Shown here piece after piece: positions 9,303 to 17,552 of a stretch of DNA of 64,000 bases (positions within the stretch are counted from its first letter, which is position 1; each line of letters opens with the position of its first letter). Source of the stretch: DASRDR01 sp963812945 [NCBI: uncultured Candidatus Rokubacteria bacterium] (GTDB lineage Bacteria; Methylomirabilota; Methylomirabilia; Rokubacteriales); NCBI GenBank assembly GCA_963812945.1, contig CAWEXD010000008.1, positions 3,162,001-3,226,000 of the forward strand. The letters run 5' to 3'. The notes beneath the pieces are model-generated. The model ran no database searches. It saw only the letters and a program-made list of their open reading frames with translations, and had not been told where the DNA came from. Made by a program: the position numbers and the translations under genes.

Positions 9303-11045
9303 TCACCCCTTGGGCGAGCCGGCCTGGCGCCGGCAGATCACGTTGAGGACGGCCTGGCGACCTTCCTCCTGGACGACCCGGAGCGCGCGGCGAAGCGCCC
9401 GCGGCAATTCGGCCGGGTCCTCGACCCGCTCCCCGTGGCCGCCGAACGCGCGCACGATCTCCTCGTAGTTGGCGGGCGCCAGACCCGACAGGGGGAAGCT
9501 CCGTGTCGTCGCCGCCCAGCCGTCGGGGTGCACGTGGCGCGTGGCGCGCTCGACCGCCTCCCACGCGGCGTTGTTGAAGATCACCGTCAGGAACGGCAGC
9601 TGGTGGAGCTGCGCCGCCAGATGGGCCGCGGACGGGGCCCCGAAGATGTAGGCCCCGTCGCCGACCGTGGCGATGACCGTCTTCTCGGGCGCCCCGAGCT
9701 TCGCGCCGAGCGCGGCGCCCAGCCCCCAGCCGAGCCCCCCGGAGTGCGGCGACCCGAAGCAGGACCCGGGTCCCGGCGGCGGGGCATGGCGGAGGTCCAG
9801 CGGGTACTCGTTGACGACGATCGTGCCGGGGCCGAGCACCTCGCCGACGCAGCGGGACGCCCACTGGAAGCCGATCGGCGTCTGCGCCTCCTCCGCCAGG
9901 GCGGCCCGGGCCCAGGCCTCGCGGCGGGCGCGGTGCGACTCGGCGAGCTCGGCCTGCCGCGCCGCGGCGCGGACCGGGTCGATCCGGCGCCGGACCGCCT
10001 CCGCGAGGAGCGGAAGCGCGACGGCCGGCTCGGCAGCGATCGGAACGTCGCACGGGTAGGAGCGCATCGGGTACCGCGAGTAGAACGGGTCCACGGCGAG
10101 CTGGATGACCGTGGCGTCGTCGGCGGGCCGCGACCGCGACGGGAACCAGGGCACGTCGCAGTCCGCCACCAGCACGACGTCGGCAGCCGCCATCCCCGGG
10201 TAGTCCTGGCTCCCGAAGACCCAGCCCGCGTGGCACGGGTGGGCCGCCGGGAAGTTCACGCACACCGGGCTCGACTCCAGCACCGGGAAGCCCCCGGCGT
10301 CCGCGAGGGCGACCAGCCCGTCCATCGCGCCGGGGGCGCCGCCCAGCGCCGACGTGACGATGAGGGGGTTCCGCGCGTGGGCGAGCCGCTCCGCCGCTTC
10401 CTCGATCCGCGCCGGATCGGGGAAGCGCCGGGTCTGGACCTCCCGCCGCGCCGGCGACGTGATGGTCAGCTCGCCGAGGGGCTGCGCCAGCACCTCCCGG
10501 GGCAGCGAGAGGTAGACGGGCCCGCGCGGCTCGGCCATCGCCAGCTCGAGGGCCCGATCCACGACGGCCTCGAGCTGGACGGGCAGCCGGAGCTCGTAGT
10601 CCCACTTGACGTACTCGCGGAGCATCCCGGCCTGGTCGAAGGATTCCTGGGCCCAGTGGATGTGCGTGTCGCGCACGCCCGGCAGCCCGCCCGCCTCGGT
10701 GATCGGAGTGCGCCCGGCCGTGAAGAGCACGGGGACCTGGGCGCGCGCGGCGTTGATGATGGCGCCGATCCCGTTCGCCGTCCCGACCGTGACGTGCACC
10801 ATCACGACCTGGGGCCGCCCGGTGACCAGGTAGTAGCCGTGGGCCATGGACACCGCGACGAACTCGTGCGGCACCGCGATCGGCCGCGGCGTCGCCTTCC
10901 CCTCCGCGGCGAAGCGCGCGAAGGCGTCGACGATGGAGGCGAAGTCGGTCCCGGCGTTGGCGAAGAAGCAGTCGACGCCCCGGTCCTGCAAGAGCTCGAG
11001 ATAGGCCTGGGCCACCGTCTCGACGCTCAGGGTCTTGGTCGCCAT
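9303..11045 (-). CDS. ThDP-dependent enzyme, acetolactate synthase-like
   Basis: A 580-residue protein with the three-domain thiamine diphosphate layout: N-terminal PYR domain, central domain and C-terminal PP domain. The cofactor-activating glutamate is Glu61 in VPHEFVAV. The metal/diphosphate motif starts [10 protein letters not shown] at residue 462 and ends FNN near 490. Family relatives are usually labelled thiamine pyrophosphate-requiring protein or acetolactate synthase, but substrate is unknown. It is last in a run of ComA-like, TauE/SafE and YeiH-like genes (49-bp gap after yeiH). A role on sulfopyruvate, sulfoacetaldehyde or a related 2-oxoacid is therefore worth testing. The N-terminal active-site segment does not look like the Xsc sulfoacetaldehyde acetyltransferases. 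Aromatic 2-oxoacid decarboxylation is the other option, given hpaBC downstream. Confidence 0.88.
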
Positions 11046-11094
11046 CGCTAGCGCGGGACCACGGGGCGCGGCGCGAACGTCGTCGCGTCGGTCA

Positions 11095-12165
11095 TCATGG
11101 ACGCACCGTCGCCATCCCCAGCGTGAGGATCGCCAAGAGGCTCAGCGTGGCCAGGAGGGCCGCCGTCCCCACGCCGAGAAAGAACGGTGTCGCGCCCACC
11201 GCGCGCATGTCCTGGAGCTTCGTCTGGAGCCCGATCCCCGCCAGCGCGACCAGGATGCACGCCTTCGAGACCTCGTCGAGCGGCCGCAGCAGCCCGGCGG
11301 GGATCAGCCCGACGCTGCGCAGGAGCGTCATGCCGAGGAACAGCAGGACGAACGGCGGGACCGCCTTCAGCCAGCTGCCGCTCGACGTCGCGCCCTGCTC
11401 GGCAGCGTTCCGGCTCCACCACCACGCGATCAGCATGATGAGCGGCGCCATGAAGGCGTTGCGCACCAGCTTGACGACGGTCGCCACGTCCCGCGCCACC
11501 ACGGAGTAGGCGGCGCTGGTCGCCACCACCTGGCTCGTGTCGTTCACGGCGACGCCGCTCCAGACGCCGAACGCGGCGTCGCTGAGCTCGAGCATGTGGC
11601 CGATCAGCGGGTACAGGAACAACGCCACCGTGCCGGTGAAGGTGATGGTGCCGACCGCGAACCCGACCTCGCGCTCGTTGGCCTTGATCACCGGGGCGGT
11701 GGCCACGATGGCCGAGTTTCCGCAGACCGCGGTGCCGACCCCGATGAGCAGCGCGAGCCGCGGCGGCAGGCCGAGCCGCCGGCCGACCAGGAGCGCGAAG
11801 GCCAGCGCCACGGTCATGCAGAGCAGGACGAGCCCGATGGCGCCGCCGCCGATCCGGGCGACGTCGGCCAGGTAGAGCCGCGCGCCGAGGAGGACGATGC
11901 CCGCCCGGAGCACGCGCTGCACGACGAAGCGGAGCCCCGGGCTCGAGGCCGGCGGAAGCGCCCACACGTTGGAGATCAGCAGGCCCAGCAGGATCGCGAT
12001 GAGGATCTCGCTCACCACCGCCGGGAGCAGCCCGCTCACCAGCCGGGCCACCGCCGCCACCAGGACGGCCAGGAGCAGGCCCGGGAGCATCTTCCGGCTC
12101 CAGGCGATCACGGACGCCCCCGGCTCACGAGCATCGACGTGGACGGCGCGAGGTCGACCACGCAT
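11095..12165 (-). CDS. yeiH: YeiH/UPF0324-family putative sulfate exporter
   Basis: A 356-residue inner-membrane protein with about ten hydrophobic segments starting near residue 27. It carries the family landmarks GIVLLGARLYLADV, IGVGTAVCGNSAIVATAPVI and WSGVAVNDTSQVVA. The family (Cons_hypoth698) has been proposed to export sulfate or sulfite in sulfonate-degrading bacteria; direct transport evidence is limited. The first 20 residues are hydrophilic and the true start could be a GTG near VIAWSRKM. The gene sits 23 bp after the TauE/SafE gene and 49 bp before the ThDP-enzyme gene, so the three are probably co-transcribed. Two unrelated candidate sulfur-anion exporters side by side is a strong contextual sign of sulfite or sulfate release. 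Confidence 0.88.
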   Translation of the reverse strand: MRGRPRAVHVDAREPGASVIAWSRKMLPGLLLAVLVAAVARLVSGLLPAVVSEILIAILLGLLISNVWALPPASSPGLRFVVQRVLRAGIVLLGARLYLADVARIGGGAIGLVLLCMTVALAFALLVGRRLGLPPRLALLIGVGTAVCGNSAIVATAPVIKANEREVGFAVGTITFTGTVALFLYPLIGHMLELSDAAFGVWSGVAVNDTSQVVATSAAYSVVARDVATVVKLVRNAFMAPLIMLIAWWWSRNAAEQGATSSGSWLKAVPPFVLLFLGMTLLRSVGLIPAGLLRPLDEVSKACILVALAGIGLQTKLQDMRAVGATPFFLGVGTAALLATLSLLAILTLGMATVRP

Positions 12166-12188
12166 TCATGGCGCACAGGCAATCCCTT

Positions 12189-12974
12189 CTAGCGAGAGAG
12201 CACGTCGGCCCAGACACGCAGGGTCACGAGCGCGATCAGGCCGCCCAGAACCGCGCGGAGCAGCCGCGTCGGCGCCCGGTGGCTGAGGCGCGCGCCGATC
12301 AGCGCGCCGACGACGCTTCCGCCGGCCACCGCCACCGTCGGCCAGAGCGGCACCTGTCCGGTCAGGAGCTTCCCGACGAAGCCCGTGAGCGCCGCGACCC
12401 CGGCGATCGCCAGGGATGTGCCGATGCTCAGCCGGAGCGGGATCCGCATCATTCCCACGAGCACGGGCACCAGGAGGAATGCGCCCCCGGCGCCCACGAG
12501 CCCGCTCATGAGCCCGATCGTCGCCGGATAGGCGATCGCCGCCCACCGATCGAACGCCAGGTCCCCGCCCAGGGGTTCGACGGGACCGCCGGGCGGCGGG
12601 AGCAGCACGAGGAGTAGCGCGAGCACCCCCATCACGCCGAACACCGCGAGGAGCGTCCTGCCGCTGACGTAGCGAGACGCCACGGCGCCGGCCAGGGACG
12701 CGGCGGCCATCGAGGGCCCGGCGACCACGGCCAGCGGCCGGTGCACCGCGCCCGCGCCGCGGTGGACGGCCACGCCCACCGCGGTGGCGGCCACCACCTG
12801 TGCCATCGTCACGCCGGACACGGCCTTGATGTCGAGGACGCCCACACCGAGCCAGGGCGGGACGTAGTAGAGCAGCGGGATCACGACGACGGCGCCCCCG
12901 ACCCCGACGAGGCCGCTCAAGAACGCGCCGACGAACCCCAGCCCGGCCAGCGTGCCGAGGAAGGCGCCGGTCAT
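12189..12974 (-). CDS. TauE/SafE-family anion exporter
   Basis: A 261-residue inner-membrane protein of the TauE/SafE (DUF81) family with two homologous halves. Each half opens with the glycine-rich family motif: GFVGAFLSGLVGVGGAVVVIP at the N-terminus and a second copy, IGLMSGLVGAGGAFLLVPVL, around residue 150. About eight membrane helices are visible. Members export sulfite, sulfoacetate or other organosulfonates, though many are uncharacterised. It lies between the ComA-like gene (46-bp gap) and yeiH (23-bp gap) on the same strand. In this position export of sulfite, the substrate of ComA, or of a sulfonate product is the simplest inference. Confidence 0.9.
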   Translation of the reverse strand: MTGAFLGTLAGLGFVGAFLSGLVGVGGAVVVIPLLYYVPPWLGVGVLDIKAVSGVTMAQVVAATAVGVAVHRGAGAVHRPLAVVAGPSMAAASLAGAVASRYVSGRTLLAVFGVMGVLALLLVLLPPPGGPVEPLGGDLAFDRWAAIAYPATIGLMSGLVGAGGAFLLVPVLVGMMRIPLRLSIGTSLAIAGVAALTGFVGKLLTGQVPLWPTVAVAGGSVVGALIGARLSHRAPTRLLRAVLGGLIALVTLRVWADVLSR

Positions 12975-13020
12975 CCCCCGCCCCCCGACGGCCGGGCTCC
13001 GCCGTCCGGCGCCGCCGTCA

Positions 13021-13863
13021 TCAGGCGGGGCCGCCGGCGGCGCGGTCCCGGGAGGCGTGCCACGCGCGCTTGAGCGTGTCCCCCCGGAGCCCGCACCGGA
13101 GCGCCTCGAGGGCCAGGACGTCCTCGGGCGCGACGTTCCCCAGGTTGACGTTCGGACCGAACCGGATCACGAGATACCGCTGCTGGGGCCCGAGCGGCGC
13201 CTCCCAGAGAACCCGGCCGGGATCGCGCACGCCCCGGAGGAACGCTTCGATGTCGGCCTCCTTCGGGAGCCCCGAGGCGTCGTAGATGCCCACGCCCCTC
13301 CCCGCCTCGCGCGCCTCCATGATGACCATGAACGCGCCGCCGGCGAGGTCGGCGTTGACGATCTCGGCGAGCGCCGCCATCGGCTGCGCGTCGCTCGGAT
13401 CCTTCTTCCCCACCTCCGACAACACGCGGAAGCCAGCCTTCACCGCCTTCGCGATCGTCTCGGCCCGCGTCCCGAGGTCCATCTCGATCGTGCCGTCCGA
13501 GACCTCGATCGCGTTGAAGCCAAGCTCGCGGGCGCGCTCGAGATAGCGGTCGACCGCGCCCTGCCAGACGGCGACCTCCTGGAGGGTCCCGCCCGGCATG
13601 CAGTAGACGCCGTGGGCCGTGACCGTCCGTACCTTCTCCTTGAGGACGTCGTGCCTGAAGAACGCCGAGGTCCCGAAGGTGAGCTTCAGCACGTCGATCG
13701 ACGGCGCCGCGACCTGCATCAGATCGTCGATCGCGTTGAGGCCGAGCCCCTTGTCGATGACCATCGTCCAGCCGCTCTCGCGGGGCTTCCGGAGCCGCTC
13801 GGCGACCGGCGGCGCGACGACGCCGTCCCAGGCAGGGCGTGCGGCCTTGTCCCGGTCAGTCAT
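13021..13863 (-). CDS. comA: ComA-like phosphosulfolactate synthase
   Basis: A 280-residue TIM-barrel protein of the phosphosulfolactate synthase family, which adds sulfite to phosphoenolpyruvate to give (R)-phosphosulfolactate. That is the first step of archaeal coenzyme M synthesis, and bacterial homologues occur. Conserved blocks appear in order: VIDKGLG, FGTSAFF, MPGGTLQEV, IEVSDGTIEM, LSEVGKKDP, EAREAGRGVG, FGPNVNLGNV and LRGDTLKRAW. Most blocks carry the charged residues expected in the active site. The ATG overlaps the stop of the upstream P-loop gene by eight bases, indicating translational coupling, and sulfur-anion exporter genes follow. No phosphosulfolactate phosphatase or sulfolactate dehydrogenase gene lies nearby, so the pathway product is open. 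Confidence 0.9.
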   Translation of the reverse strand: MTDRDKAARPAWDGVVAPPVAERLRKPRESGWTMVIDKGLGLNAIDDLMQVAAPSIDVLKLTFGTSAFFRHDVLKEKVRTVTAHGVYCMPGGTLQEVAVWQGAVDRYLERARELGFNAIEVSDGTIEMDLGTRAETIAKAVKAGFRVLSEVGKKDPSDAQPMAALAEIVNADLAGGAFMVIMEAREAGRGVGIYDASGLPKEADIEAFLRGVRDPGRVLWEAPLGPQQRYLVIRFGPNVNLGNVAPEDVLALEALRCGLRGDTLKRAWHASRDRAAGGPA

Positions 13864-14863
13864 CGACGAGACCCTCCATGCAGTTGCGGGCGCCGCAGAG
13901 CGTGCTGCGAGCGCTCTTGATCGTCGCCCGGTCCACCAGGCCGTGCATGCCCCGAAGCCGGCCGGCCATGAGGGCCGGGGTGTCGAGCGATGGCAGGGGG
14001 AGCCGGTCGTAGAGGAGCACGGTGCCACCGTGCTTCTCGGTGGCGTTGTCGAACAGGAGCTTGACGAGCTTCTCTCGGCGCTCGATTCGCGTGACGACCG
14101 CCCGGTCCCGGCCCGACTCGACCTTCGGGCTCACGATCCTGAGCGACGGGCTCACCAGGACGTCGGAGGGCGCCTGCACGTGGCCCAGGTCGAGCGCGAT
14201 CTTCGAGCCCCAGGGGTCCGGAGACGGCGGCAGCGTGAGCCCGAGGCGGTCGGCGACCGCGGGGAAGTCGTAGAGGAGCGTTCCCAGGCGGATGTTGTCG
14301 AACAGGGAGCCCTTGTAGAACTCGTAGCCCCCGTTCGTCAGGCGAAGGTGGGTCATCTCCGTCGAGAAGATGGTCCAGCCTCGCTGCAGCCCCTCGAGCA
14401 GGAACACCGTCTTGCCCGCGCCCGCGCCGCCCGGAATGAGCCAGAGATCGCCCTTGTCGTCGACCATGGCGCTCGCGTGGAAGGACCACGTGTCGTGGTA
14501 ACGCTCCAGCGCGTGAATCGCGTATCGGAAGACGAACCCCAGGTTCCCGAACAGGGAGTAGCGCCGGTCCGAGTTGGCGGCTTCCAGCGCGGTCCAGTCC
14601 CCCACCGCCAGCACGCGGTCGGGCTCGAGCGTGATCGCGGGGTCGAGGCCCGGCGTGTCGATGATTCGGATCTCGGCGTCGACACCCAGGGGGCCCGACA
14701 CCGCCCCGTCCCACGGCACGTCCTCGATGCGATGGTAGTCGGTCAGGAGCGACTGCGGCACGCGGTCGGCGAAGTACTCCGAGCGCGTGAGGAGCTCCCG
14801 GTTGTTCGAGACGAGACCGAGGCGGGTGCGGACGATCCGGATCGCGCGGCGGTGGAGGTTCAT
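13856..14863 (-). CDS. P-loop protein resembling HPr kinase/phosphorylase
   Basis: A 335-residue soluble protein of uncertain function. The Walker A motif GGAGAGKT is at residues 145-152, placed as in HprK-fold proteins: a lead-in (FHASAMVDDKGDLWLIP), then the P-loop, then a helix and GWTIFSTEM. The N-terminal 120 residues have no recognised domain. A C-terminal CGARNCMEGLVDD tail contains two cysteines. Its stop codon overlaps the comA start by eight bases, so the two proteins are probably made together. Possible roles are a small-molecule or protein kinase acting in the same pathway, or a regulatory ATPase. HPr itself is not encoded here, so classical carbon-catabolite signalling is not supported. 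A candidate promoter lies at 14896-14925. Confidence 0.7.
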   Translation of the reverse strand: MNLHRRAIRIVRTRLGLVSNNRELLTRSEYFADRVPQSLLTDYHRIEDVPWDGAVSGPLGVDAEIRIIDTPGLDPAITLEPDRVLAVGDWTALEAANSDRRYSLFGNLGFVFRYAIHALERYHDTWSFHASAMVDDKGDLWLIPGGAGAGKTVFLLEGLQRGWTIFSTEMTHLRLTNGGYEFYKGSLFDNIRLGTLLYDFPAVADRLGLTLPPSPDPWGSKIALDLGHVQAPSDVLVSPSLRIVSPKVESGRDRAVVTRIERREKLVKLLFDNATEKHGGTVLLYDRLPLPSLDTPALMAGRLRGMHGLVDRATIKSARSTLCGARNCMEGLVDD

Positions 14864-14895: not shown

Positions 14896-14925
14896 ACTCT
14901 CCCAGACGGACCGCGACCGTGTCAA
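14896..14925 (-). promoter_or_regulatory. Candidate promoter of the ComA operon
   Basis: Minus-strand TTGACA (14920-14925), 18-bp spacer, GAGAGT (14896-14901), about 32 bp upstream of the P-loop gene. The -35 box overlaps the end of gspB. The -10 match is weak; an alternative -10 is TAGGCT at 14887-14892. Confidence 0.3.
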
Positions 14926-15863
14926 GGCGACCCGGGACGCGCGTACGGGTTGAGCTTCGGCCGCAGCAGGATCCGCTGGTCCGCGCGCCGGAGGATCGCG
15001 CCGTCCGGCGTGATCTGCTCGACCACGACGTCCCCGGTCACCGCCTGCCCCTCGACGTACTTCCGCCCGTTGATGAAGACGAGCCGCTCCGCCGGAAGCT
15101 CCGAGTAGACCAGCACGTCCAGCGCGAGCGCCGCCGAGTCGGCGGGCCCAGCCGGGGCCACCCGGCCCGGGCCGGCGGCGGGCGGCGACGGCGCGGGAGC
15201 GAGGGCGAGCGCCGGGGCCGCCCCCGGGGCGGGAGGGGCGGCAGGCGCGGCCGGAGCGCCGGGGGCGGGGGGGACCGGTTTTAGGGCGATCGCGCTCTCG
15301 CCGGGAGCTTCCGCGAGCGGGGAACGCGCGCGGCCCATCGCTGGCGTCCTGGGCTCGGCGCCCTCGCCGAGCCCGTCTCGCGGCAACCCCGCTCGGGCGG
15401 CATCCGCGACCCGTGGGGCATCCGGCGTCCTCGCCGGAGCCGGGAGCGGGGCGACGCCCACGGGCGGCGCGATGGGCTCGGGAGCGACGGCCGGACCTAG
15501 CGCGGGCGCGACCGGCACCTGACCGGCCCCCTGGTCAGCGCGCGCCGACGAAAGCGAAACCTGAGGGCTCGCCGGGACCGGACCGGCTTTCGCGGGTGAT
15601 TCGAGACCGGCGACCCGGGGAGCCGGCGCCAGGACCTGCCGGACCGGCTCCGGAGGACCGGACACCCAAGAGCCCCTCAGCCCCACTGGACCCCATAGGC
15701 CGTAGATGGCGACCGCGCTCACGGCGAGCGCGCCGACGAGCGCCCAGGGCCACACCGGCCGACGTGCCGGCGCGGGGCCCTCATGCGCGGCGTCGAGGGT
15801 CGGAACCGGTGAGACCCGGCGCTCGCGTTCCGCCTTCCGGAGGGCGTCCAGGATGTAGGACAC
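14922..15863 (-). CDS. gspB: GspB-like general secretion pathway protein B
   Basis: A 313-residue bitopic inner-membrane protein. It starts with the family signature MSYILDALRKAERER, has one membrane helix at about residues 37-58, then a long proline/alanine-rich periplasmic linker. The C-terminal T2SS-B domain (LDVLVYSELPAERLVFINGRKY through LLRPKLNPYA) is intact. GspB/ExeB partners the ATPase GspA/ExeA in placing the type II secretin in the outer membrane through peptidoglycan. The gene follows gspA after 21 bp on the same strand, the usual order. No other gsp genes are in the window, so the secretin and assembly platform must be encoded elsewhere, or the pair serves another envelope machine. 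Confidence 0.88.
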   Translation of the reverse strand: MSYILDALRKAERERRVSPVPTLDAAHEGPAPARRPVWPWALVGALAVSAVAIYGLWGPVGLRGSWVSGPPEPVRQVLAPAPRVAGLESPAKAGPVPASPQVSLSSARADQGAGQVPVAPALGPAVAPEPIAPPVGVAPLPAPARTPDAPRVADAARAGLPRDGLGEGAEPRTPAMGRARSPLAEAPGESAIALKPVPPAPGAPAAPAAPPAPGAAPALALAPAPSPPAAGPGRVAPAGPADSAALALDVLVYSELPAERLVFINGRKYVEGQAVTGDVVVEQITPDGAILRRADQRILLRPKLNPYARPGSP

Positions 15864-15884
15864 AGTCCTTCGCCTCGGTGGCCT

Positions 15885-17552
15885 CTATGGAGTCTCGGCC
15901 GAGAGCCGTGGCTCGTCAGACCCGCGCGCGGCGCCCTGGAGGAGGATGGCCGTCTCCTGCCCGACCACGCCGTCGGGCTCGATGGCGCGGGCCTGCTGGA
16001 ACGCGACGACCCGCTTCCACAAGGCCTGGTCGTACGGCCGGCCGGCCTCGACCGGCCGCCCCGTGCCATCGGCGCGCCGCATCCGCTCCCGAAGCCAATC
16101 CGCCGCGGGACCGCGAGCCCCAAGGCGCACCGGCAGCGCGCCCGGCGGCGGCCGCCAGAGGACGACGAAGGCACCGTCCCAGAAGGGCTCCACCTCCGCC
16201 AGCGGCGCCGTGATCACGCGGCTCCCGAGGCTGAGCGTTGCCTCCGACGGCGTGAGCCTGCTGAGCGCGGCGTAGCGCCGCTCGCCGCCGGAGCCTACCA
16301 GCTCGAGCACGGCCGGCAGGTCCAGCCGGCGGAGCTTCCGCCAGGTCCCGACCGTCTCCAGGCACTCGAGCGCCCCAGGCGGCGGCACTTGACAGTCAGG
16401 GGGGGTACCCCCGGACTTGAGGCCCCAGAGGCCGAGGAGCGCGACGAACGCATCCTCCTTCGTCGCGGCCAGCGCGGGATCCAGGAGGACCTCGGCGAAG
16501 CGCGGCGGCGCGTGAGGCTCCGGCGCTCCCACTGGCGCCGCATCCACGGCCGTCGCAGGAACGCTGACCGCGGTGGCCACGCCGGCCAGCGCCGGGCTGG
16601 AGGGCCCCGGCGTCATGCGCTCGACCCGGAGCCCCTCCCGGCCGAGCTCGCCCGGGGCGAAGAAGACGAGGGCGGCGCCGCCGATCATCGCGACGAGCGC
16701 CGCCACGGCGGCCCGGCGCCCCCACCGCGACCACCAGCCGCCGGATCGCCCCAGCACCTCGTCCGCCGCACGTCGCACCGTGCGGGCCTCGACGCGCGGG
16801 CGCCCCTGCGTGAAGGCGCCGAGCAGCGCCCGGTCGGCGATGGCGTTGATGAGGCGCGGGATGCCGAACGACTGCTGGTACACGGCGCGCAGGGCCGCCT
16901 CGGGGAACACGGCGTCGGCGCGCCCCGCGACCGCCAGGCGATGGCGGACGTACGCCCGGGTCTCCGCCGGCGACAGCGGCTCGAGATGGTAGCGAGCCGT
17001 GACCCGCTGGGCGAGCTGGCGGAGCTTCGGCTGCTCGAGGATCGCCGCCAGCTCCGGCTGGCCGATGAGGATCACCTGGAGGAGCTTCTGGCTGGCCGTC
17101 TCGAGATTCGTGAGGAGCCGCACCTCTTCGAGCACCTCGGCCGCCAGGTTCTGGGCCTCGTCGATGATGAGGACCGTGCGCCGGCCACGGCCGTGGGCGT
17201 CGAGGAGGTGGGCGTAGAGCCGGTCCACGAGGGCCTTCGCGCTCGCGGTGCCGGCCGGGTACGCGATTCTCAGCTCGTCGCACACGAGGGCGAGGAGCTC
17301 GACGGGACTGAGCCTCGGGTTGAGGACGAGCGCGACGTCGACGTGGGACGGGAGCTGCTCGAGAAGGCAGCGGCAGACGCTCGTCTTGCCGGTCCCGACC
17401 TCGCCGGTGAGCTGGACGAAGCCGCCGTGCTCGCCCACCCCGTAGACGAGGTGCGCCAGTGCCTCTCGGTGCCGGGCGCTCATGTAGAGGAAGCGCGGGT
17501 CCGGCGTGATCGAGAACGGGGGCTCGCGTAGGCCGAAGTGCGAGAGATACAT
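15885..17552 (-). CDS. gspA: GspA/ExeA-like AAA ATPase with peptidoglycan-binding domain
   Basis: A 555-residue protein. The cytoplasmic AAA domain opens with MYLSHFGLREPPFSITPDPR, has Walker A GEVGTGKT at residues 50-57, Walker B LIIDEAQNL and the sensor stretch LIGQPEL. A membrane helix follows near residues 280-300. The periplasmic part has a C39-peptidase-like region and a C-terminal peptidoglycan-binding motif (AFQQARAIEPDGVVGQETAILL region). This is the ExeA architecture: the protein binds peptidoglycan and works with GspB in secretin assembly. It is the first gene of the gspAB pair. Its upstream spacer (17553-17703) has only a weak minus-strand TATGCT. Confidence 0.92.
   Translation of the reverse strand: MYLSHFGLREPPFSITPDPRFLYMSARHREALAHLVYGVGEHGGFVQLTGEVGTGKTSVCRCLLEQLPSHVDVALVLNPRLSPVELLALVCDELRIAYPAGTASAKALVDRLYAHLLDAHGRGRRTVLIIDEAQNLAAEVLEEVRLLTNLETASQKLLQVILIGQPELAAILEQPKLRQLAQRVTARYHLEPLSPAETRAYVRHRLAVAGRADAVFPEAALRAVYQQSFGIPRLINAIADRALLGAFTQGRPRVEARTVRRAADEVLGRSGGWWSRWGRRAAVAALVAMIGGAALVFFAPGELGREGLRVERMTPGPSSPALAGVATAVSVPATAVDAAPVGAPEPHAPPRFAEVLLDPALAATKEDAFVALLGLWGLKSGGTPPDCQVPPPGALECLETVGTWRKLRRLDLPAVLELVGSGGERRYAALSRLTPSEATLSLGSRVITAPLAEVEPFWDGAFVVLWRPPPGALPVRLGARGPAADWLRERMRRADGTGRPVEAGRPYDQALWKRVVAFQQARAIEPDGVVGQETAILLQGAARGSDEPRLSAETP

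Follow-up and report, generated by a model that had tools for sequence, protein, structure and literature searches.

What does a homolog of ComA, a member of the phosphosulfolactate synthase family, do in a bacterium, and which of its neighbors act with it? The question is raised by a stretch of 64,000 nucleotides (hereafter the window) from the uncultured Candidatus Rokubacteria bacterium DASRDR01 sp963812945, of the phylum Methylomirabilota (assembly GCA_963812945.1, contig CAWEXD010000008.1, positions 3,162,001 to 3,226,000). An initial annotation had read five adjacent genes, for an HprK-like P-loop protein, ComA, the membrane proteins TauE/SafE and YeiH, and a thiamine diphosphate (ThDP)-dependent enzyme, as one possible operon for sulfite or a C3 sulfonate. 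In our analysis the conserved unit is the pair of HprK-like gene and ComA gene, not the five-gene operon. With respect to its function, we hold the following proposal to be evenly poised between right and wrong: the HprK-like protein phosphorylates 3-sulfolactate, ComA acts in reverse to give phosphoenolpyruvate (PEP) and sulfite, the spent ATP is regained through pyruvate kinase, and the sulfite is exported or oxidized. The direct evidence consists of gene families, adjacency, clade structure and a predicted fold, from which we infer every substrate and direction as well as any role of the ThDP enzyme.

The relatives compared were 95 Methylomirabilota genomes, in which the HprK-like protein and ComA were sought in separate searches. 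Of the five ComA loci found in an initial contig scan, two belong to Methylomirabilota (65-67% identity) and three to Bacillota (46-50%). ComA-type proteins are present in eight of the 95 genomes, and six of the 95 hold members of the close clade (66-83% identity). The HprK-like gene also occurs in six genomes, and these are the same six (G001, G005, G020, G022, G086, and G096). It adjoins ComA in all six carriers, in the window and in G246, which is discussed below. Two independent sets of this size would coincide by chance with a probability of about 1e-9, a figure that makes the case look too strong because several of the carrier genomes are related. In a tree of 24 ComA proteins the seven HprK-linked members form one clade (support 96/99). 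The tree and the ComA alignment were made without L023 (a 35% identical copy in G096 with an internal stop) and L025 (a partial copy in G086); seven plasmid matches were used, whereas further matches in Nocardioides, haloarchaea and other plasmids, as well as the G246 ComA, were left outside the tree. No HprK-like protein was found in the plasmids searched. The HprK-like gene is the only constant partner of ComA, and its importance had been underrated in the initial annotation.

The five genes of the window, all on the minus strand, are the following:

13856..14863, minus strand: HprK-like P-loop protein, 335 aa, proposed sulfolactate kinase (adjacency to ComA, profile, model).
13021..13863, minus strand: ComA, phosphosulfolactate synthase family, 280 aa, proposed phosphosulfolactate sulfo-lyase (TIGR03849, motifs, clade).
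12189..12974, minus strand: TauE/SafE-family membrane protein, candidate sulfite exporter (Pfam PF01925, 128 bits).
11095..12165, minus strand: YeiH/SuyZ (PSE)-family membrane protein, candidate sulfite exporter (PF03601, 264.6 bits).
9303..11045, minus strand: ThDP-dependent enzyme of family PRK08327, optional partner (NF006203, 685.7 bits).

A check of the open reading frames confirmed the co-directional arrangement, the coordinates, the gaps of 23-49 bp and the one overlap described initially. The ComA start at 13863 gives an overlap of 8 bp with the HprK-like gene; the gaps after ComA are 46, 23, and 49 bp, and 139 bp then separate the ThDP gene from an HpaB gene. The family labels of ComA, TauE, YeiH, and the ThDP enzyme hold as well, as each scores in its Pfam family. 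YeiH matches PF03601 (Cons_hypoth698) but stays below the cut-off of TIGR00698 (168.5 against 232.6). The ThDP enzyme lies above the cut-off of 456 for NF006203/PRK08327, a model that names no function, and it is not Xsc (TIGR03457, 151.2 against a cut-off of 676.4). Upstream of the HprK-like gene, after a gap of 58 bp, GspB-like and PEP-CTERM-type ATPase genes are located (window positions 14922-17552); a link with the pair is not evident.

Whereas the order of HprK-like gene and ComA is kept in relatives, the five-gene order was seen in the window only, and it is also only there that TauE directly follows ComA. In the six relatives no TauE or YeiH was found after ComA, and the ThDP gene is not on the ComA contig, within the limits of the short downstream sequence available (5.1 kb in G022, 2.5 kb in G020, 2.1 kb in G086, 1.1 kb in G096, and less than 0.3 kb in G001 and G005). 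We consequently rejected the five-gene operon as the conserved unit. YeiH is present in 22 of the 95 genomes, including three carriers, where it lies on contigs other than that of ComA. The window TauE gave no tblastn match at 1e-5 in the relatives' loci, though two of these hold an annotated TauE/SafE gene, so this search says little.

The ComA of the window is by score and motifs a member of the phosphosulfolactate synthase family (PF02679, 286 against a cut-off of 25.2; TIGR03849, 317.9 against 280). It is 48% identical over 277 of its 280 residues to Xaut_5052 of Xanthobacter autotrophicus Py2, which we take to be XcbB1. Of the nine motif blocks common to Methanocaldococcus jannaschii ComA and XcbB1, the shared residues are kept except that RES-G is changed to REA-G, a change present in all seven HprK-linked ComA proteins of the Methylomirabilota type.

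ComA-like genes outside this clade occur in varied settings. On plasmids of Chelativorans, Bradyrhizobium, Arthrobacter, and Natrinema (L147, L148, L149, and L150), genes of 30-32% identity lie among transporter, PrpD/PrpF, hydrolase or dehydrogenase genes, and on the Natrinema plasmid a TauE/SafE gene is located two genes upstream. It may be that many of the bacterial proteins named "phosphosulfolactate synthase" have a catabolic function. A Legionella lytica plasmid (L071:3874-6786) encodes a protein of 970 residues of which the C-terminal part matches ComA, directly followed by a 2-phosphosulfolactate phosphatase gene. A third ComA-like type, 27% identical, is found in G029 and G096 (L022:9545-10288, L024:4103-4846); it is without the EVGKK lysines and several ComA motifs, and it probably catalyzes another reaction.

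To which family does the constant partner belong? At E 0.001 the window HprK-like protein had no match among the Pfam and NCBIfam families, and none of the seven members reached a cut-off for HPr kinase or phosphoenolpyruvate carboxykinase (PEPCK), the best values being E 0.13 for PEPCK_ATP and E 0.0013 for HprK_rel_A. Local profile alignment with hhalign, in contrast, gave a probability of 95.7 over 62 columns to 11 HprK-related proteins of the same phylum, a weak 27.9 to five PEPCK proteins and 1.1, i.e., no link, to four true HprK proteins. In a 16-row alignment with HprK-related proteins, His129, the Walker A motif and parts of the C-terminal half are in common. An AlphaFold model was built on this alignment, HprK-related rows included, and the leading Protein Data Bank (PDB) matches of the model in Foldseek are ATP-dependent PEPCK. 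Structural alignment with VIA-align gave Z 11.3 for PEPCK 2pc9_B (root-mean-square deviation 5.1 over 253 residues) and Z 9.9 for HPr kinase/phosphorylase 1ko7_A (2.8 over 123 residues). The histidine and Walker A motif, the profile comparison and the predicted fold together support placement of the protein in the HprK/PEPCK P-loop superfamily.

How could such a protein act with ComA? The phosphorylation site of PEPCK is the C2 oxygen of enolpyruvate. The PEPCK entries in the PDB match list include complexes with beta-sulfopyruvate, the 2-oxo analog of sulfolactate, and for these two reasons a natural guess for the group that is phosphorylated is the C2 hydroxyl of sulfolactate. In the proposed pathway, the HprK-like protein would use ATP to phosphorylate the C2 hydroxyl of (R)-3-sulfolactate to 2-phospho-3-sulfolactate (PSL). 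ComA would then run in reverse, eliminating sulfite from PSL and leaving PEP, which pyruvate kinase would convert with ADP to pyruvate and ATP. In the window, TauE and YeiH would carry the sulfite out of the cell, and in G086 and G022 a cytoplasmic Soe-like molybdoenzyme would oxidize it. Overall, sulfolactate would give pyruvate and sulfite as in the SuyAB reaction, which is known to run (PMC12890257). A gene for pyruvate kinase adjoins the pair in three related genomes.

A possible origin of the sulfolactate is suggested by G246. A profile search for the HprK-like protein gave one case among 149 Bacillota genomes, and a profile that included the G246 sequence gave no further case in 398; G246 itself matches there by construction, its own sequence being in the profile. 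The HprK-like gene of G246 (29% identity) lies directly upstream of ComA (37%), in a co-directional run of genes for LarA, the HprK-like protein, ComA, two transketolase halves, an aldehyde ferredoxin oxidoreductase, an epimerase, a sulfoquinovose-isomerase-like protein and, as ABC transporter genes, two permeases (one of which was scanned) and a solute-binding protein. As far as the permeases no gap exceeds 74 bp, with start sites chosen by eye. The isomerase-like protein matches NF048012 (E 3.9e-70) as its sole NCBIfam family at 1e-10, with a score of 236.8 against a cut-off of 700; the matches of the isomerase, racemase and transketolase are all below the NCBIfam cut-offs. The run appears to serve the catabolism of a compound resembling a sugar, a sulfosugar being the most likely candidate. 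There the sulfosugar would be converted to sulfolactate by the isomerase, the transketolase and the aldehyde oxidoreductase, along with a LarA-type racemase. G005 and G022 also have aldehyde oxidoreductase genes upstream of the pair; the proteins are 88% identical to each other and 33% identical to that of G246.

In three loci the neighbors of the pair suggest a link to sulfite, namely in the window (TauE, YeiH) and in G086 and G022 (Soe-like molybdoenzyme). In G086 a fused iron-sulfur (FeS)-NrfD protein starts 13 bp after ComA; next comes a molybdenum (Mo) subunit, of which the contig end leaves the N-terminal 178 residues. At another contig end the same Mo subunit is matched from residue 494 on, running into a ThDP gene 63% identical to that of the window. 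The most parsimonious order is HprK-ComA-FeS/NrfD-Mo-ThDP, across contigs that possibly adjoin. As an EF-G gene is located upstream of the pair both in the window and in G086, the two loci are apparently orthologs that differ in carrying TauE-YeiH and the molybdoenzyme, respectively. The order in G022 is FeS/NrfD-Mo-pyruvate kinase-HprK-ComA, and G096 has these FeS/NrfD and Mo genes ahead of the ThDP gene, on a contig other than that of the pair. The presence of the Mo subunit is ordinary (40 of the 95 genomes), and it is therefore its adjacency to the pair that is the evidence.

In the first 80 residues of two Mo proteins, one with an unsure start, there is no twin-arginine motif of the form RR-x-F-[LI]; SoeA is likewise without it (PMC6620896). 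A Soe-type role in sulfite oxidation is a possible reading, and, the closest solved relative being PsrA (2vpw), a Psr/Phs-type role may be the alternative. Relatives of the Mo subunit on six plasmid records have sulfur-type neighbors in two cases, none that is clear in two of 53-61% identity, and two of 32-37% identity are not decisive. On a haloarchaeal plasmid the Mo subunit lies beside rhodanese and TauE/SafE genes; in Thermomicrobium and Natrinema no clear sulfur-type neighbor was seen. On Rhodococcus jostii pRHL3 (L132) a Soe-like Mo subunit is encoded beside TusA, DsrE, and metallo-beta-lactamase-fold genes, a set that likely serves persulfide/sulfite oxidation.

For the exporters, a sulfite role has precedents. 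SuyZ is the YeiH-family exporter of sulfolactate breakdown (PMC11582611), sulfite resistance in Salmonella is driven mainly by YeiH (PMC12880088), and a TauE homolog is proposed as sulfite exporter in sulfofucose catabolism (PMC12421959). Among five plasmid YeiH neighborhoods that were fetched, the four with annotation contain no sulfo-lyase, and the fifth carries no annotation. The sulfite/C3-sulfonate theme first proposed for the locus is retained in view of the Soe-like gene by the pair in two of six relatives, the two candidate exporters of the window and the sulfosugar-type run of G246. One pathway made up of all five genes is not supported, as the ThDP gene is found in only two of the six carriers, YeiH lies on contigs other than that of ComA in the three carriers that have it, and no TauE or YeiH follows ComA in the relatives within the sequence available.

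Several observations weigh against sulfolactate cleavage by the pair, and three are the strongest. First, to our knowledge ComA is known only in the forward, sulfite-adding direction; in the parts of the literature searched, no report of its reversal was found. Second, the best case for catabolism rests on one diverged genome, as G246 is the single case in the Bacillota genomes sampled and its ComA (37% identity) scores below the TIGR03849 cut-off (255.5 against 280) with the RES-G motif partly changed. Third, no source of the sulfonate is evident in the window, where reading of the genes by eye recognized no sulfolactate importer and no sulfosugar enzyme. Moreover, sulfite-type neighbors are found in only two of the six relatives. 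The other genes beside the pair are for gamma-glutamyltransferase in G001 and for pyruvate kinase, a kinase-like and a CitE-like protein in G020. In G096, the closest relative, neither an exporter nor a molybdoenzyme is encoded by the side of the pair; a CitM/ArsB-type gene lies divergent to it, and there is no YeiH match genome-wide. The pyruvate kinase adjacency in three close relatives may perhaps reflect one event. With respect to the kinase itself, the acidic pair is altered (S-T-E instead of the S-D-D or S-D-E of HprK-related kinases), and the model is moderate (mean pLDDT 68.5, pTM 0.73, blocks within 121-260 at 75-94), with a pLDDT of only 38.5 when it was built on a 7-row alignment. 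The Foldseek TM-score to PEPCK is low, at about 0.4 by query length.

The most probable alternative, though we think it unlikely, is that the pair runs forward: ComA would join sulfite to PEP, and the HprK-like protein would remove the phosphate to give sulfolactate as a sulfite sink or solute, with the exporters and the Soe-like enzyme as parallel means of removal. HPr kinase/phosphorylase is known to work in both directions, and the characterized ComA enzymes run forward. The X. autotrophicus proteins were studied in vitro (PMC11507031). Sulfite detoxification would also fit all sulfite-related neighbors. Consistent with the initial statement that no ComB gene is nearby, tblastn with one ComB query (from G096) gave none in the window. 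ComB (PF04029) is present in 73 of the 95 genomes, yet it is absent in four of the six carriers (G001, G005, G020, and G022), so that the HprK-like protein could stand in for it. However, the other two carriers (G096 and G086) have ComB-family genes, on contigs other than that of ComA, and the ComB-less genomes are related assemblies of unknown completeness. A sulfite sink moreover needs no transporter or sugar-cleaving genes, yet the G246 run contains them.

It is more doubtful still that the HprK-like protein has no sulfonate substrate at all and is either a regulatory protein kinase or NTPase controlling ComA, or a PEP-maker for ComA like PEPCK. The classical HprK acts on a protein, and the best Foldseek matches are PEPCK. 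PEPCK_ATP is over its cut-off in five of 60 sampled genomes and in none of the five carriers in that sample (G020 being outside it), so that a PEP-making enzyme might be wanted. Against this, the HprK-like protein is 335 residues long compared to 511-535 in the matched PEPCK chains and reaches no PEPCK threshold, and no candidate target protein is encoded alongside the pair in all loci.

An early view of the ThDP enzyme as unrelated to the unit was revised, and we regard it as an optional partner, because its gene immediately follows that of the Soe-like Mo subunit in G096, and likewise in G086 on the contig that possibly adjoins that of the pair. In about a dozen other loci read by eye, it occurs with other catabolic and transport genes. 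For instance, in L061, L151, and L138 (G086, G085) PRK08327-type genes are followed by flavoprotein and tripartite-tricarboxylate-transporter-type genes, by eye a recurrent catabolic set, and in G086 AcnX-like genes lie near a ThDP gene. A five-gene pathway centered on this enzyme, in which ComA makes a C3 sulfonate, the ThDP enzyme cleaves it in the manner of Xsc or sulfopyruvate decarboxylase and the product leaves through the exporters, fits the gene order after ComA-TauE-YeiH in the window and the two placements after the Mo gene, but is very improbable given that the ThDP gene is present (at E 1e-120) in 52 of the 95 genomes and in only two of the six carriers, keeps other company elsewhere and encodes a protein that scores well under the cut-off for Xsc.

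Sulfolactate arises when sulfoquinovose is broken down and is also a constituent of spores, and the available parts of PMC12890257, PMC9826295 and PMC12421959 describe no direct sulfolactate lyase other than SuyAB. Among the papers listed in a literature search for a sulfolactate kinase, phosphorylation of sulfolactate does not appear, and among those listed for PSL with sulfoquinovose, one has both, with PSL only in a reference title. We would put it slightly below an even chance that the pair represents a new route of C-S cleavage for a major natural sulfonate, in which a PEPCK/HprK-type kinase primes sulfolactate and a ComA-family enzyme in reverse gives PEP and sulfite. If so, a bacterial ComA annotation could no longer be read as a sign of coenzyme M or sulfonate synthesis, carriers of the pair would count as sulfonate degraders, and a protein family without annotation would gain a testable function.

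How, then, does the locus compare with known systems? Like the Xcb coenzyme M pathway of X. autotrophicus Py2, it has a ComA similar to Xaut_5052, with the motifs kept but for one residue; unlike it, the gene upstream of Xaut_5052 is without a Walker A motif and does not match the HprK-like protein. When six Xanthobacter proteins were compared by tblastn (E 1e-3) with the window and 15 relatives' loci, only ComA matched, and there was no neighbor of Xaut_5052 and no 2-hydroxypropyl-coenzyme M lyase. The window locus is not an Xcb cluster, and coenzyme M synthesis by that route is unlikely.

The HprK-like protein shares His129, Walker A and C-terminal parts with HprK-related kinases, and its model resembles PEPCK and HPr kinase/phosphorylase; it differs from all of these in staying under every cut-off, in a family-specific N-terminal half, in the altered acidic pair and in lying beside ComA in every case found. 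The sulfo-TK pathway for sulfoquinovose, as described in the available part of PMC12890257, has in common with G246 a sulfoquinovose-isomerase-like protein, a split transketolase and an epimerase-like protein, whereas LarA, the HprK-like protein, ComA and the aldehyde ferredoxin oxidoreductase of G246, and its isomerase below the cut-off, set it apart. Closest in outcome are SuyAB and the exporter SuyZ of Paracoccus pantotrophus, with which the locus would share the net reaction and has in common a YeiH/SuyZ-family exporter alongside (PMC11582611, PMC12890257). In contrast to SuyAB, cleavage would proceed via a phosphorylated intermediate, through a P-loop kinase-type protein and ComA, which are unrelated enzymes.

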